In this document: positions 1-45,854 of the stretch, in pieces
Position numbering within the stretch: the first letter of the stretch is position 1
How the letters are laid out: every line of letters starts with the position of its first letter
Source: Candidatus Gastranaerophilales bacterium
Lineage (GTDB): Bacteria; Cyanobacteriota; Vampirovibrionia; Gastranaerophilales; Gastranaerophilaceae
Reading direction: 5' to 3'
Assembly: GCA_944323265.1 (NCBI GenBank)
Contig: CALURX010000007.1
Coordinates: forward strand, 1 to 61,656
Length of the DNA stretch: 61,656 nt
Made by a program: the position numbers and the translations under genes
Notes under the pieces: model-generated
Told to the model about the DNA's origin: nothing
What the model saw: only the letters and a program-made list of their open reading frames with translations
Databases searched by the model: none

Positions 1-228
1 TTAATCCGTTCAATGTCAAGAAGCGGTAATTGTTTAGATAATGCTCCAATAGAGAGTTTCTTCGGACATTTGAAAGACGAGATGGATTACAAAGATTGTA
101 AATCATTAGAAGAAACACGTGACAAAATAGATGAATACATTTATTATTACAATAATAGAAGATACCAATGGGGGTTAAACAAAATGACACCTTGTGAATA
201 CAGAAAATACCTTGCAATGTCCTACTGA
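1..228 (+). mobile_element. IS3-family transposase (orfB), C-terminal fragment
   Basis: The reading frame is open from the first base of the window, so this is the 3' end of a longer gene. The visible part is the end of an rve-type integrase core: SRSGNCLDNAPIESFFGHLK carries the last acidic residue of the DDE triad (Glu in IESFFGHLK), followed by the YNNRRYQ...LNKMTPCEYR ending typical of the IS150/IS3 group. It catalyses strand transfer of its own element. Being cut by the window edge, it cannot be judged intact or broken. It lies just beyond the last gene of the polyene-type operon. Confidence 0.9.
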
Positions 229-1149: not shown

Positions 1150-2185
1150 TTTTCACACACTCCAAAAGCGTGTAATCATGCGCGCCGATGTCTTCATACA
1201 CGTTATTAATTCTAAATCCGGACAGATTGATAATCTTTTCCATATCTTTTTGAGAATACATCTTGCTGCAGCCGTTTGCCATACAGGTAAAATACAATGA
1301 CGTATGTACGAGCGAGTATTTTGCGCCCTCAAATTTTTGGCGGTCAATAAACGGTTCAAGAATATAAACTTTTATGCTGTCATCGCCGGAGGCGTGGATT
1401 TTTTCAAGAATCTTTTTGATTTGTTCTTTAGAAAAACAGTCCAGAAACTGGCTCATAAAAACTGCGCCCGACATTTGAGGAAGCTCGTCTTTTAAAACAT
1501 CGGCCTTAAAAAATTTGCATTTTTTAAGTTCTTCGTCGTTCTTGATATAGTCAATATTTGCAGGAAGGTCAATCATTGTTATATCAAGATTAGGGTTATT
1601 TTTAAGACATACTTTCTCAAAAATTCCTGTGTTTCCGCCGATATCAAAAACTTTGTTACTCTTTGAAACAATTTCGCAGATTAAATCAAAGCAGGTGTTT
1701 GAATAGTAATGGTCAAATTCATACCAGCTTTTCTTCATTTTGTCGGGAAGCTTGGAGATATAAGGATAAATTGTTTCCGCATCCGAAAAAATTTGTCTCA
1801 ATCCTTTGGGCTCTGCCTCTGTGAAGGATTGTGTTAGTAAAGAAGCTCCCGAGTAGCACACATCTTTTACGAAATTAAAGTTCGCAACAGTCATCTCATC
1901 GTAGAGAAATGTTTTTCCAAGCGGGGTGATTGAATATACATCCTCCTGATTTTTAACTATTCCGATAACTTCCGCCGTCTCAAGAAGGGTTTTTGCTGTG
2001 TATTCAGAGAGTTTAAGTTTTTCAATCAAATCTTGGGCGCTTGAAGGTGCTGTGTCAATCTCTTTTAGGATTCCTAAATCAAGCATTGCGCCGATTGCGT
2101 GAAAGCTCAAAGGCGCAAACGCAATTTTTTGTGCGTCCGTAAGAGCCTGAATAAGTTCTTGTTTATGTGCTTTCCTTTTTTCCAT
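1142..2185 (-). CDS. SAM-dependent O-methyltransferase-like protein
   Basis: The 347-residue protein has an N-terminal helical winged-helix-like dimerisation region (residues 1-110) and a C-terminal Rossmann methyltransferase domain. KVFDIGGNTGIF is the glycine-rich SAM-binding motif I, and ITMIDLPANI and KFFKADVLKDELP follow as motifs II and III, as in the COMT/O-methyltransferase family 2 layout. Aryl polyene head groups are commonly methylated, so a ring-modifying role is likely. The start lies 23 bp inside the end of the MMPL exporter gene, showing tight coupling. The alternative is a methyltransferase for another small phenolic or acyl product. Confidence 0.75.
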   Translation of the reverse strand: MEKRKAHKQELIQALTDAQKIAFAPLSFHAIGAMLDLGILKEIDTAPSSAQDLIEKLKLSEYTAKTLLETAEVIGIVKNQEDVYSITPLGKTFLYDEMTVANFNFVKDVCYSGASLLTQSFTEAEPKGLRQIFSDAETIYPYISKLPDKMKKSWYEFDHYYSNTCFDLICEIVSKSNKVFDIGGNTGIFEKVCLKNNPNLDITMIDLPANIDYIKNDEELKKCKFFKADVLKDELPQMSGAVFMSQFLDCFSKEQIKKILEKIHASGDDSIKVYILEPFIDRQKFEGAKYSLVHTSLYFTCMANGCSKMYSQKDMEKIINLSGFRINNVYEDIGAHDYTLLECVKNA

Positions 2186-4184
2186 GATTTGATTTTATCA
2201 TAAAAAGGCTTACAAGATATGAGGTGAAAATTCCTAAGAAAAGAGTTATCCCCAGAGAGCTTATGAGTTTAAAACTTGTAAAAGAAAGCAGCAAAAACGA
2301 TATTGCAGTAGAGGCGCAAGAGAGAAATACCGCGTCTTTTGAGTTTTCCCCGCTGTTTAATCTGAATATTGAATAATCAAGGCTGAATCCGATGATTAAA
2401 AACAGGGCAAGGATATGGAAAAGATTTATTTCAACTCCCGTAAGGCTCAAAAGTGTTACGGCAAACGCCGCCCCGAGAAGCGGAGAAAGGGTTATTTTGA
2501 ATGCGTTTTTTATTCCGTATAAAAAGCTCAAAAATCCAAAAAGAATCAAAAACGCACATGGTATCAGAACAAAGCACTTATGCCTCAAATTCCGAAGAAT
2601 TTGGGAGATGCTGTCTGCGATGTTTATTGAATCTTTTGTTTTTTCAAACACAAGGGTGCACGAGGTGTTGTTATCAAGCATAAACTCGGATTTGAGCGGA
2701 AAATTTTCCGGGGGGTAAATCTCCGGGGGGTAAATTTGAGGGGGGTAAATTTCAAGTTTCCTATTTTTGAGTTTCTGAATGTTTTCTTTGTTCAAAAATG
2801 TTGCATAATTATCCAAATCCGCATCATAGAGAGATTTTACGAGTTCTATATTCTCCTTTTGTCTTGAACTTGAGGAGACAAAGCGGCTTAAATTTATTGC
2901 ATTATCAAGGTTAAGTTCTTCTTCTTTTTGAAGGATTTCATCAATATTTTTGCCTGTTGTTATAATAAATTCAGGACTTTTGGGCGAGAATACTTTCTGG
3001 TATAAGCTTTCTGCATACGCCAAATCCTTAGGAGGATTGTACAGGTTTTTTAAGTTGTCATTAAATTGGATTTTGAATCCGCCGATTAGTATTACAACAA
3101 GAATTAGCGCAAAAAAGTACGGCTTAATCTTTGGGTAAACAAGTTTTTTAAATCCGCCTGAGCTAACTTCAAGTTTAAACATCGGAAGAATTATAAGCAC
3201 GAAAAGATAAACCCCGATAAGCCCGAAAGATGTGAACACTGCAATTTGTCTCAAAACTTCAATATCCGAAAAAGCGAGAATTCCAAACGCGGTAACAGTC
3301 GTAAGCATAGAGGATGTAAGGCTTTTTTTGAATCCCTTTTCTTTGCCTGTAAGATAATAATGCAGCGAGTAATCAAGGCTCACACCGATTAGGGAAGTTG
3401 AAAAGACAAATGTAAGTATATGAATTTTATCAAACACAAATGTTGAAACAGAATACCCCATAAGGATTCCGAACACTATGCTCAAAATTATCGGGAAAAG
3501 AATTTTTATTGATTTGAAATAGAATCTTGCAAGCAGAATTATTGCAAGAGTTGAGATAAGGCAGATTATATTAATTTCCGTATTTGATTTTGTACTTGTG
3601 ACATAAGAATGCACCGGCGTTCCTGTAAGATAAACCCCGGGCTTTTGTTTTTCGATAATCTTAGCCGGGTTATCAGTCTCAACATGGATTACGGAATAAA
3701 ATTTGCCGTTATAGTTAATCACGTTTTCTTCCTGAAACTTTTGATTTTGCATCAAAAAATCGTTCGCAAAAAGATACGGGTCTTTATCAGGAGGTGAAAC
3801 ATAGAATCCAAGCGGATTATATAGCTTTTCCAAACCCTTCTGTTCAAGCGTTTTGTAATCTTTTGCCTTGATTAGGTTCCTGTCTTCTTCCGTCAAAAAA
3901 TTTGCAGGATAATTTCTGTAAACCTCCACAACCTCATCAGCGTAAGATTGGAGCTTGAACTCCTCAAACTCGGATTTCATCTCTTCCAGAGTATCAAAAT
4001 CGTCGGCTTCAAGGATTATATTAAGCTTTTTTGATGACATGCCGGCAATTTTTACGATATTTTTTTCAGCCTGAGAATTCGGAGTAATAAAAGCTTTCAG
4101 AAGTTCCGTCTCAACAGGCTTTGCTTGCAAAAACGCCGCGGCAAAGAAAATTAATGATAGAATTATAAAACCAATCCGTTTCAT
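2163..4184 (-). CDS. MMPL/RND-family exporter
   Basis: The 673-residue protein has a signal-anchor helix, a large periplasmic loop (about 30-195), a block of membrane helices (about 200-370), a second periplasmic loop (about 375-550) and a second helix block to the end. This is the doubled six-helix layout of MMPL lipid exporters such as those in aryl-polyene operons. GVSLDYSLHYYLTG and IGFSLDYSIFRLNSG are the two related helix-4 motifs bearing the acidic proton-relay residue. It probably moves the finished lipid-like product across the inner membrane to the adjacent LolA-like carrier, whose stop codon it overlaps (ATGA). The second loop contains an in-frame five-residue tandem repeat (IYPPE) made by a dispersed DNA word; see the repeat at 2710-2750. 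Confidence 0.85.
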   Translation of the reverse strand: MKRIGFIILSLIFFAAAFLQAKPVETELLKAFITPNSQAEKNIVKIAGMSSKKLNIILEADDFDTLEEMKSEFEEFKLQSYADEVVEVYRNYPANFLTEEDRNLIKAKDYKTLEQKGLEKLYNPLGFYVSPPDKDPYLFANDFLMQNQKFQEENVINYNGKFYSVIHVETDNPAKIIEKQKPGVYLTGTPVHSYVTSTKSNTEINIICLISTLAIILLARFYFKSIKILFPIILSIVFGILMGYSVSTFVFDKIHILTFVFSTSLIGVSLDYSLHYYLTGKEKGFKKSLTSSMLTTVTAFGILAFSDIEVLRQIAVFTSFGLIGVYLFVLIILPMFKLEVSSGGFKKLVYPKIKPYFFALILVVILIGGFKIQFNDNLKNLYNPPKDLAYAESLYQKVFSPKSPEFIITTGKNIDEILQKEEELNLDNAINLSRFVSSSSRQKENIELVKSLYDADLDNYATFLNKENIQKLKNRKLEIYPPQIYPPEIYPPENFPLKSEFMLDNNTSCTLVFEKTKDSINIADSISQILRNLRHKCFVLIPCAFLILFGFLSFLYGIKNAFKITLSPLLGAAFAVTLLSLTGVEINLFHILALFLIIGFSLDYSIFRLNSGENSKDAVFLSCASTAISFLLLSFTSFKLISSLGITLFLGIFTSYLVSLFMIKSNHGKKEST
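2710..2750. repeat. Three copies of GGGGGGTAAAT at 15-bp spacing inside the MMPL gene
   Basis: Copies begin at 2710, 2725 and 2740. Because the period is 15 bp the array stays in frame and encodes IYPPQ-IYPPE-IYPPE around residues 479-492. The same word in the other orientation (ATTTACCCC) occurs in intergenic DNA and in coaBC. Confidence 0.85.
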
Positions 4185-39682: not shown

Positions 39683-40321
39683 ATGGATTCTGTTTTACAA
39701 GATATGAACCCTGTCTTACAAATGCTTACGGTAATGACGCTTTTTTCGCTTTTACCGTTTGTTTTCTGTTGTATGACTTGTTTTTTGAGATTCACAATAG
39801 TATTTTCACTCCTTAAAACCGCAATGGGTGTGCAAGTTCCGCCTGCAATCGTTACAATCGGGCTTTGTATGATTCTTACTTTTTATACAATGGGCGGAGT
39901 TTTCCAGCAGATGTATGAAAAGGGTTCAATTCCTTATCAAAAGAATCAGAATTTGATTATGGCAATAGATGAGGGGTCTAAACCTTTGAAAGAATTTATG
40001 ATGAAGCAGACAAGAGAGAGCGACTTGGCGTTTTTTGTCGAGCTTAAGCACAAAACACCGCCTAAATCTCCTGAAGACATTACTATTTGGGAAGTTGCGC
40101 CGGCGTTTATATTGAGCGAACTCAAAACAGCATTTGAAATCGGGTTTGTTGTTTTTGTTCCGTTCATCGTGCTTGACCTTGTTGTTGCAAACATTTTGCT
40201 GGCACTTGGTATGTTCATGCTCTCTCCGACAATTATCTCGCTGCCGTTCAAGCTTTTGATATTTATTGCTGTAGACGGCTGGGCACTGATTGTTCAGGGG
40301 TTGGTGCAAAGTTATAATTAG
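39683..40321 (+). CDS. fliP: Flagellar/type III export gate protein FliP
   Basis: The 212-residue protein has the four helices and hydrophilic middle loop of FliP/SctR. FLRFTIVFSLLKTAMGVQVPP and LSELKTAFEIGFVVFVPFIV are signature segments, with ISLPFKLLIFIAVDGWAL at the end. It lacks the cleavable signal peptide usual for FliP and so has SctR-like length. It forms the core ring of the export gate with FliQ and FliR. A 450-bp repeat-filled gap separates it from fliQ. Confidence 0.93.
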   Translation: MDSVLQDMNPVLQMLTVMTLFSLLPFVFCCMTCFLRFTIVFSLLKTAMGVQVPPAIVTIGLCMILTFYTMGGVFQQMYEKGSIPYQKNQNLIMAIDEGSKPLKEFMMKQTRESDLAFFVELKHKTPPKSPEDITIWEVAPAFILSELKTAFEIGFVVFVPFIVLDLVVANILLALGMFMLSPTIISLPFKLLIFIAVDGWALIVQGLVQSYN

Positions 40322-40327
40322 TTGAAG

Positions 40328-40710
40328 AGTTGAAAGGTTGAAAAGTTGAATAGAAATTATTCCCTCTCCTAACAGGAGAGGGCAAGGGTGAGGTAACAAT
40401 TGAGGTTTAGTAGTTTATAAGTTGAGTAGTTTAGAAGAAGTTATAAGGGTTGATAAAGTTGAAAGGTTGAAAAGTTGAATAGAAATTATTCCCTCTCCTA
40501 ACAGGAGAGGGCAAGGGTGAGGTAACAATTGAGGTTTAGTAGTTTATAAGTTGAGTAGTTTAGAAGAAGTTATAAGGGTTGATAAAGTTGAAAGGTTGAA
40601 AAGTTGAATAGAAATTATTCCCTCTCCTAACAGGAGAGGGCAAGGGTGAGGTGACAATTGAGGTTTAGTAGTTTATAAGTTGAGCAGTTTAGAAGAAATT
40701 TAAAATCTAA
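40328..40710 (+). repeat. 129-bp tandem repeat array (about 2.9 copies) between fliP and fliQ
   Basis: The CCCTCTCC landmark occurs at 40362, 40491 and 40620, exactly 129 bp apart. Each unit contains octad GTTGAA runs, a CCCTCTCC-taaca-GGAGAGGG palindrome with AAGGGTGAGG, and GGTTTAGTAGTTTATAAGTTGAGTAGTTTAGAAG-type sequence. Copies 1 and 2 are almost identical and the third diverges at its end. No reading frame is conserved across copies. Confidence 0.93.
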
Positions 40711-43848: not shown

Positions 43849-44488
43849 CTGCAATAACTCCTCTAACTCCGGTAATACTTTCAAGCAGCTTCGGCGCAAA
43901 GATTTCACTCTCAAAATGTCCTATATCGAATACTACAGGCTTTGCTTCGAGCGCCGTATGGAATTTCAAATCTCCAGTGACAAAGGCATCGACCGGCTCA
44001 GAGTTAATGAATTCAGAACCGGAGCCGGCGCAAAAACCGATTGTCCGGACGGTTTTTGCGCCGGAATTGTTTACATACCTCAAATGGGGAGATATTGTTA
44101 AAAGTTTTTTCTTTAAATCTTCAACGCTCATCGGGGTTTCAAGTGTCACGATTCTTACAAAATCATCTCCAACGCCTGTGAATCCCAATTTCTGAAGAAT
44201 TACATCCGTTGTTCCGCCCTTTGCGCGGTCAAGGTTTGTGTGAGCCGAGTACATATTAATCCTTCGGTATTCTAAAGGAACATAAAACAGCGGATGGTGT
44301 GAAATTATTAAATCACATTCTTCTTCAAGCGCTTGATGAAAAACCTTATCAGTAATCGTGAGTGCGTACATGATTTTGTTAACCTCACTTGTTTCAAGGT
44401 CAACAATCCATCCGCTTGCATCCCAGCTCTCTTGAGTTTCGAGCGGTGCAAACTCTTCTATCTTTTGAACAATTTCATACTTATTCAA
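43820..44488 (-). CDS. Nif3-like dinuclear metal-centre protein
   Basis: About 222 residues. LIISHHPLFY and SAHTNLDRAKGGTTDVI are the first metal-binding motifs, and VTGDLKFHTALEAKPVVFDIGHFESE the last. Together they match the YbgI/YqfO family; the actual reaction is unknown although GTP cyclohydrolase-like folds have been proposed. I choose the TTG at 44488, which follows GGAGGAG by six bases, over an upstream start at 44539 inside coaBC. The overlap with coaBC is then 8 bp. Confidence 0.88.
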   Translation of the reverse strand: MNKYEIVQKIEEFAPLETQESWDASGWIVDLETSEVNKIMYALTITDKVFHQALEEECDLIISHHPLFYVPLEYRRINMYSAHTNLDRAKGGTTDVILQKLGFTGVGDDFVRIVTLETPMSVEDLKKKLLTISPHLRYVNNSGAKTVRTIGFCAGSGSEFINSEPVDAFVTGDLKFHTALEAKPVVFDIGHFESEIFAPKLLESITGVRGVIADEKSPFIND

Positions 44489-45854
44489 AAATCTCCTCCA
44501 AAATACGTTTTGCGATATTTTGTTTTGTGTCTTTTTCAATATGTTTTATATTGAGCTCTCTATTTATAATATAAACTTCATTTGAATCGCTGTCAAAGCC
44601 GATGTCTTTTCTTGAAATATCGTTTGCAACGAGAAGGTCGCATCCTTTATGTTGAATCTTTATTTTTGCATTTTCGATTAAGTTTTCGCTCTCTGCGCAG
44701 AATCCGACAATAATCGGTTTTCTTGTTCCCTCTCCATCGGGGAGGGTTAGGGTGGGGGGTAACAGACAAATCTCTTTCAGAATATCAGGATTTTCAACAA
44801 GCTTAAGGGTGATACTATTATCTTCCGGATTTATACATTTACCCCCCTGTTGACATTCTGCTTGTAGCCCGGCATTTGAGGCAGACTCGGCGTTTTTATT
44901 CAAACTGGTAGCTTCACTGTTGTCTGCCGACATTATATATTTCCCCCCTCCGGAGGCTATCAGGCTTGTAGTTTCACCATCCGGCCCTATACATTTCCCC
45001 CCCCTTTTGATTTTTTCTTTAGCATAGTTTTCTACTCTGTAATCAGAAACCGCCGCAGCCATAATCACACAATCCTGAAAAGGTGTTTGCTCCTTAACTA
45101 TTTTTTCCATCTCCAGAGCGGTTTCTGTTACGTAATTCAAGTAAGGCTTATCTGTTTTGAACGTTGATATGAGCGTAACTTCCGCCCCCATAGAGTAGGC
45201 AGTGTCTGCAAGTGCAAGCCCCATTTTTCCTGATGATGAGTTAGAGATGTATCTTACAGGGTCGATTTTTTCTTTTGTACCGCCTGCAGTAATGAGAATT
45301 TTTTTGCCTTTGAGCTTCGGTGTCATTATATCGACAGTTTTGTCAAAAATTTCTTCTACCTCTCTCATTCTGCCTATACCTGATGTTCCGCAGGCCAGGT
45401 ATCCGCTTGCCGGTTCAAGGATGTGGTATCCGAGTTTGGATAATTTCGTTAAGTTCTCCTGAACAATCGGATTGTTCCACATATTTGTATTCATTGCAGG
45501 AACAATGAGAATAGGTTTTGAAAACGCGCAAGCTGTTGACAAAAGAAGGTTATCGCAAATACCGTTTGCGATTTTTCCTATTGTGTTAGCGGTTGCAGGT
45601 GCTATTACAAAAATGTCGGATTCAGTAAGCGCTATGTGTTCAGGCTTATACTCATCTATTTCGAAGTTGTTAACATAAACCTCATTATTAGATAAAGTTT
45701 CAAGCGTAAGTTTTGTAACAAGGTTGAGCGCATTTGGCGTAAGCACTACTCTAACGTTTGCGCCTGCTTTTCTGTACATTCTTACAAGCTCGCATATCTT
45801 GTAAGCTGAAATTCCTGCACTTATTCCTACTAATATATTTTTGTTTTCTAACAT
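44481..45854 (-). CDS. coaBC: CoaBC (phosphopantothenoylcysteine synthase/decarboxylase) with in-frame repeat inserts
   Basis: The 457-residue protein has CoaC in residues 1 to about 180, with SAGISAYKICELVR, PAMNTNMWNNP and the substrate-lid Cys in GYLACGTSGIGRM. CoaB follows: ILITAGGTKEKIDPVRYISN, SSSGKMG, VIMAAAVSDYRV. It makes 4'-phosphopantetheine from phosphopantothenate and Cys. CoaB is interrupted by about 60 extra residues (about 284-347) holding three GGK(C/Y)I motifs, and by about 14 more (364-379, PPTLTLPDGEG) encoded by a CCCTCTCC palindrome. The frame continues, and the rest (PIIVGFCAESENLI, LLVANDISRKDIGFDSD) is intact. No Shine-Dalgarno; TATTAT lies six bases before the ATG. 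Confidence 0.93.
   Translation of the reverse strand: MLENKNILVGISAGISAYKICELVRMYRKAGANVRVVLTPNALNLVTKLTLETLSNNEVYVNNFEIDEYKPEHIALTESDIFVIAPATANTIGKIANGICDNLLLSTACAFSKPILIVPAMNTNMWNNPIVQENLTKLSKLGYHILEPASGYLACGTSGIGRMREVEEIFDKTVDIMTPKLKGKKILITAGGTKEKIDPVRYISNSSSGKMGLALADTAYSMGAEVTLISTFKTDKPYLNYVTETALEMEKIVKEQTPFQDCVIMAAAVSDYRVENYAKEKIKRGGKCIGPDGETTSLIASGGGKYIMSADNSEATSLNKNAESASNAGLQAECQQGGKCINPEDNSITLKLVENPDILKEICLLPPTLTLPDGEGTRKPIIVGFCAESENLIENAKIKIQHKGCDLLVANDISRKDIGFDSDSNEVYIINRELNIKHIEKDTKQNIAKRILEEIFE
44726..44760. repeat. CCCTCTCC palindrome inside coaBC
   Basis: TTCCCTCTCCATCGGGGAGGG followed by TTAGGGTGGGGGG. Same module as at 4739, 30810 and 40362, here translated in frame as PPTLTLPDGEG. 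Confidence 0.8.
44825..45005. repeat. Three ATTTACCCC/ATTTCCCCC elements inside coaBC
   Basis: ATACATTTACCCCCC ends at 44846, TATATATTTCCCCCC at 44947 and TATACATTTCCCCCCCC at 45004. They are read on the minus strand as GGKCINP, GGKYIMS and GGKCIGP. The middle copy has CTGCCGAC before it, as in the intergenic copies at 34826-34945. Confidence 0.8.

Follow-up and report, generated by a model that had tools for sequence, protein, structure and literature searches.

Coding palindromes have long been presented as an oddity of Rickettsia, in whose protein-coding genes Ogata et al. reportedly described Rickettsia palindromic elements (RPE) in 2000. The small dispersed repeats (SDR) of filamentous cyanobacteria, attributed to Elhai et al. 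in 2008, are said to be very small and mobile, 21–27 nt long and often arranged in tandem arrays. Compared by description alone, the repeats treated here resemble SDR in being very small, apparently mobile, and often tandemly arrayed, and in coming from the same broad phylum, but differ from them in length. RPE lie in frame within protein-coding genes and form stem-loops of 105–146 bp (PMC2229807). Moreover, according to PMC3733652, REPs tagged by GTAG or CGTC are found inside genes of several phyla, DNA repair genes such as uvrA being frequent hosts, and grouped repeats encoding 43–82 aa occur in Thauera and R. conorii. In-frame Rickettsia palindromes and in-gene REPs are thus already published (PMC2229807, PMC3733652), and the original prediction on this DNA, which compared the locus with Rickettsia only, was too narrow in this respect. 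CoaBC is not named in the main text of PMC3733652, and a literature search, which covered few subscription papers, returned nothing relevant on repeats in Gastranaerophilales genomes.

The coaBC gene described here resembles the RPE-bearing genes in that dispersed repeats lie in frame in a conserved gene and add residues to an enzyme that is still recognisable. It differs in its lineage, in that one of its two repeat families is non-palindromic, and in that a single gene is hit at three loops, in many species and by several families.

The coaBC Gene and Its Two Inserts

The window, i.e., the whole 61,656-nt stretch of DNA that was analysed, represents contig 7 in a genome of 2.24 Mb and 106 contigs (G000). 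The host is an uncultured gut bacterium, its closest named kin being MAGs of Candidatus Gastranaerophilales (L038 and L039). Positions 44481–45854 of its minus strand form a frame of 457 codons, stop-free throughout, that encodes the bifunctional phosphopantothenoylcysteine decarboxylase/phosphopantothenate–cysteine ligase CoaBC. The coaBC model TIGR00521 matches the protein in two stretches with 400 bits (cut-off 220), and Foldseek matches its core to the solved CoaBC 6TGV and CoaB 1U7Z. A search of the genome found no other full coaBC. As had been predicted, the frame and the catalytic motifs are kept, since the 457-aa frame is open and D271, K281, G384, F385, N411, and K444, among the residues invariant across 33 CoaBC proteins, are all present. 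Residues 281–284 read KIKR (45003–45014, minus strand) and are part of the conserved K-x-K-K active-site motif, in which K281 is invariant and K283 nearly so; the first insert starts at the very next base.

This first insert (44831–45002, minus strand), delimited by profile, blast, and alignment at what is here called site B, measures 172 nt and encodes GGKCIGPDGETTSLIASGGGKYIMSADNSEATSLNKNAESASNAGLQAECQQGGKCI, a gain of about 58 residues in which GGK(C/Y)I units occur three times. The spacing between KIK(K/R) and NPDIL is accordingly 70 residues, against 12 in most relatives (+58), in good agreement with the roughly 60 residues and three motifs first proposed. Unit comparison resolves the insert into a composite of ATTTACCCC-type units, namely a first unit of 54 nt (44949–45002, minus strand), a second unit of 102 nt (44847–44948, minus strand), which is a longer variant with related copies, also found by blast, in recJ and in an array on contig C43, and the start of a third.

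The second insert, at site C between NPDIL and GFCAES (44728–44759), is a REP-like palindrome located by pattern search, folding, and alignment. Its plus strand reads CCCTCTCCATCGGGGAGGGTTAGGGTGGGGGG, composed of CCCTCTCCATCGGGGAGGG and TTAGGGTGGGGGG, and the minus strand, on which coaBC is encoded, is read as (L)PPTLTLPDGEG. From NPDIL to (V/I)GFCAES there are 23 residues in G000 and 14 in two sister species (G048 and G052), which carry AERKGDS and AERKGET between the same flanks. The element proposed for this site is thus present, but the 14 extra residues ascribed to it count the element itself, the net gain being 9. The DNA of this copy folds at -5.2 kcal/mol, better than 198 of 200 shuffles (2/200 as good), and an intergenic copy of the same family folds with a z of -3.0. 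The insert at site C is seen in G000 only and rests on one assembly. Both repeat inserts thereby stand confirmed, in frame, in coaBC. Two predicted peptides, CIGPDGETTSLIASGGGK and EICLLPPTLTLPDGEGTR, would report the translation of the CoaBC inserts.

Two Dispersed Repeat Families

Both inserts belong to families with many copies elsewhere, as profile, pattern, and blast matches in G000 confirm for the dispersed-repeat origin first proposed. In the window, CCCTCTCC occurs 10 times against 0.5 expected, with as many in none of 100 shuffles, and ATTTACCCCCC, with at most one mismatch, occurs 6 times against 0.78 expected, a count reached by 0/100 shuffles. For the genome as a whole, where figures derive from pattern searches and stretches around matches and not from a full scan, ATACATTTACCCCC is found 52 times with at most one mismatch (reversed control, 0), and GGGGAGGGTTAGGGTGGGG, with up to two mismatches, at twelve sites on both strands. 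With one mismatch allowed, every one of the 65 species in the genus has ATACATTTACCCCC, with counts from 2 to 189 (reversed control, 0–2 per strand); in other genera it reaches high counts only in a few of this family (g7, g15, g21, and g28) and otherwise stays near background. The window also holds three 129-nt tandem repeats, 92–94% alike (40309–40700), in each of which CAAGGGTGAGG comes after the palindrome CCCTCTCCTAACAGGAGAGGG.

The ATTTACCCC element, a unit of about 51–58 nt, stands singly or in tandem and has two near-invariant blocks, GGGGKAAAT and CTAC. Successive units in G000 are spaced by 54, 102, and 57 nt within genes, and intergenic spacings include 53, 55, 56, and 58 nt. Neither a consensus hairpin nor a consensus pair was found in 20 copies, and shuffled versions of the coaBC copy fold as well as the copy itself (z +0.6); a GCTGGTAG/CTACCAGC stem, visible in a few copies of G062, was dropped on the same ground. 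The description of the inserts as palindromic elements therefore holds for the CCCTCTCC family and fails for this one, which lacks the palindrome with a conserved stem that marks REP and RPE. In G062 the element is joined to GTCATTGCGAGG...GGCAATCC palindromes, and at two loci of G000 (C9:16968 and C19:10596; L183 and L189) some copies start right after a TAA that looks like the upstream gene's stop codon. The profile gave 33 distinct matches in the G000 loci sampled, 28 of which lie outside open reading frames of 200 aa or more; thus, genes are avoided overall. A search of Rfam gave no match.

The CCCTCTCC element is palindromic, with copies reading ...GGAGAGGG-TTAGGGTG..., and the fold test shows the 20–40 bp stem-loop typical of REP. 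As with the in-gene REPs described in PMC3733652, short palindromes of this kind lie within genes. However, TTAG stands beside the stem in place of a GTAG or CGTC tetranucleotide at one end, the host belongs to the Gastranaerophilales, and no RAYT (REP-associated tyrosine transposase) gene flanked by the palindrome was found, the RAYT of G000 being flanked by GTAGGTCAGGCAATGCCTGAC. That this RAYT moves one or both families is rather unlikely, and the proposal concerns the mover only, so that it is compatible with the explanation preferred below. It draws on the REP-like form of the site C palindrome and on the single G000 RAYT gene (C13:40477–40803; NF047646, 119.8 bits, cut-off 80), but the pair flanking that gene, GTAG with GTCAGGCAATGCCTGAC, is a different one, no CCCTCTCC occurs in the 9-kb stretch around it, and the ATTTACCCC element is not palindromic. 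Moreover, the palindrome is found in 55 of the 65 species and RAYT genes in 36, none having been found in the other 29. RAYT was therefore set aside as the mover, since its flanking repeats match neither family. At the three RAYT loci L204, L205, and L206, each species' own short palindrome adjoins the gene, mostly with GTAG (GTCAGGCAATGCCTGAC in G000, GGTGCGC..GCGCACC in G048).

No target-site duplications or clean element ends were found, and the element stands in place of some host bases both in lpxK and at site C; local recombination is thus possible. Tentatively, the ATTTACCCC element could form a class of very small mobile DNA in its own right, non-palindromic, about 51–58 nt long with its near-invariant blocks, tandem-forming and present in well over 100 copies in some species, that may feed new disordered loops into core enzymes of the whole genus.

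Origin of the First Insert

The first insert as a whole matches a tandem array on contig C43 of G000 (L202) with 80% identity over 173 nt (E 2e-34; blast against sampled G000 loci), and parts of it match recJ (80% over 90 nt). This array, which lies at a contig end (positions 1–330), has a period of 54 nt and ends in the 100-nt variant that also sits in coaBC. It is non-coding, with stops in all three forward frames and frame shifts between units, and no coaBC sequence flanks it within the stretch examined there. The full-length match in non-coding DNA indicates that the first insert is a copy of a dispersed composite repeat. It also contradicts the view of the GGK(C/Y)I repeats as an old CoaBC feature that grew by internal duplication rather than incoming DNA. 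Internal duplication does occur, as the insert is common to three sister species with differing numbers of units; nevertheless, an old protein feature is very improbable, because the same element sits in uvrA, recJ, and a dehydrogenase gene and because hardly any other species has the insert.

Of about 60 species, only G000, G048, and G052 carry the first insert. A profile of the ATTTACCCC element, built with the coaBC copies left out, finds coaBC of these three with best-copy E-values of 7.6e-9, 3.9e-9, and 2.5e-13, respectively, and gave no match in coaBC of the other species tested. Alignment with relatives, most of which carry no insert, thus speaks against an old feature shared by all close relatives at equal divergence. 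The MAGs of the two sister species were assembled separately, and both contain the first insert with its flanks, so that it is not an assembly error, as had been considered at the outset. For the inserts in general, an assembly or binning error is hardly credible: the MAG does consist of 106 contigs and repeats often lie near contig ends, but the frame and the core are intact and similar inserts recur in many independent assemblies.

Insertions in Other Genes

A search for the same words in other genes, as originally suggested, was productive. In-frame copies in G000 are found in coaBC, uvrA, recJ, lpxK, and a zinc-dependent dehydrogenase gene, i.e., inserted in conserved genes as RPE are, and the four of these genes that carry the ATTTACCCC element share one reading frame (GGKCI). 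The uvrA insert GGKCISNEGGTSNNKSES is present in 6 of 13 genomes compared (G000, G052, G048, G049, G055, and, in a diverged form, G041), with a clean empty site in the remaining 7. Several ATTTACCCC-type units lie near the N-terminus of recJ in G000 and G048, with related stretches in the recJ region of G052, and the dehydrogenase gene holds one such unit. In turn, lpxK of G000 contains a GGGGAGGGTTAGGGTGGGG-type palindrome read as SPSLTLPAGEG, in the same reading frame as the site C copy; this site is empty in G048 and G052, and both lpxK copies of G055 bear a different palindrome in that loop. The G055 MAG, possibly a mixed bin, has two diverged copies of lpxK (L234 and L245), whose palindromes occupy the same loop, and also two of uvrA (L223 and L232).

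Three 15-nt repeats with ATTTACCCCCC, read in frame as IYPPQ/IYPPE, were located by pattern search in an MMPL-like membrane protein gene of the window (repeats, 2706–2750; gene, 2163–4184; both on the minus strand). Comparison with the sisters gives three repeats in G000, four in G048, and none in G052, and these are probably simple tandem growth, with a putative kinship to the element. Some other in-gene word matches, including L182 and L201, look like coincidences and were rejected.

Recurrent Insertion in the Loops of CoaBC

Three sites were compared in about 60 related CoaBC proteins, namely the CoaC–CoaB linker (site A), the stretch after K-x-K-K (site B), and that from NPDIL to GFCAES (site C). 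On a quick, approximate tree of 54 CoaBC cores, with length thresholds of 14, 20, and 20 residues for A, B, and C, the fewest changes are at least 3, 3, and 7, respectively. Several mutually unrelated repeats occupy site C across species. CoaBC inserts elsewhere include PPPNPLPHGAGE in four species and PSLTLPGGEG in G035, and site A of G014 contains three tandem copies of a NPTPQSPPSRGGEA-like sequence. Site C of G046 (L023) has 60 residues with a duplicated block (NEEHREAQYNSGTSQLCSDQRSTYV) of yet another family, not present in its sister G034 (L048) and thus gained or lost; its DNA also shows GGAACACA/TGTGTTCC inverted repeats. The differences among species at each site point to recurrent arrival in the same loops, a pattern that lay beyond the view of the original prediction, made on this DNA alone. 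Words resembling GGGGTAAAT occur in the GVN residues at site B of G033, G045, and G025 and in RGVNIKPY at site C of G034/G046; the element profile misses them, so they were not assigned to its family.

AlphaFold2 models the window CoaBC with a mean pLDDT of 82.7, mostly confident apart from residues 285–344, the only ones below 50, which are the site B insert. In line with the protein loops first proposed, the first insert is predicted to be a disordered loop and site C a short hairpin-like stretch. For CoaBC of Mycobacterium smegmatis, PMC7794376 describes the K-X-K-K loop and a flap at the CoaB active site; residues 290–298 are not visible in the crystal. Sequence alignment places site B at the end of this 290–298 stretch. 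Site A corresponds to the 180–189 linker. Among the three sister species, Ka/Ks is 0.05–0.13 for the core and 0.30–0.58 for the aligned part of the insert, the latter from few sites; thus, the enzyme is strongly and the insert weakly constrained.

These Ka/Ks values of the insert weigh against selection for a function, e.g., tuning of the CoaB active-site flap, as do the freely varying number and length of units and the many species, the majority, that have no insert. Such a function is suggested by the position of site B at the flap beside K-x-K-K, the repeated hits on the same loops, and the single frame shared by four genes, but tolerance alone explains recurrent hits and a selected role is unlikely.

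Probable Spread and Tolerance of the Repeats

The explanation that very probably applies is one of spread and tolerance, in which short dispersed repeats are kept within genes only where they are in frame, stop-free, and in dispensable loops, with the three CoaBC loops repeatedly hit by different families. Two kinds of repeat, a REP-like palindrome and a non-palindromic, tandem-forming unit of about 51–58 nt, would spread through the genomes of the genus, most likely as non-autonomous repeats that move as DNA, and the majority of copies would settle between genes. Copies that break genes would most likely be removed by selection, and an in-gene copy would survive only if it is in frame, without stops, and in a loop that the protein can spare. 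CoaBC would supply three such loops, i.e., the inter-domain linker, the active-site flap after K-x-K-K, and the surface loop between NPDIL and GFCAES, which different families have struck again and again. After arrival, an insert would drift under weak constraint, its length changing by whole codons. Judging from the sequence, the protein presumably carries the insert and works, and the effect of the insert may be near neutral.

The initial interpretation is partly supported. The inserts in CoaBC document well how proteins tolerate selfish DNA of a kind that is known but has been little studied. To this kind the locus contributes its lineage, a family that is not palindromic, and the dense occurrence of both filled and empty sites within a single enzyme, among them the flap at its active site. 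Since the same loops of this normally essential enzyme can be compared with and without inserts in dozens of related species, it becomes directly testable whether such insertions are neutral or harmful, or whether they give rise to new stretches of protein.
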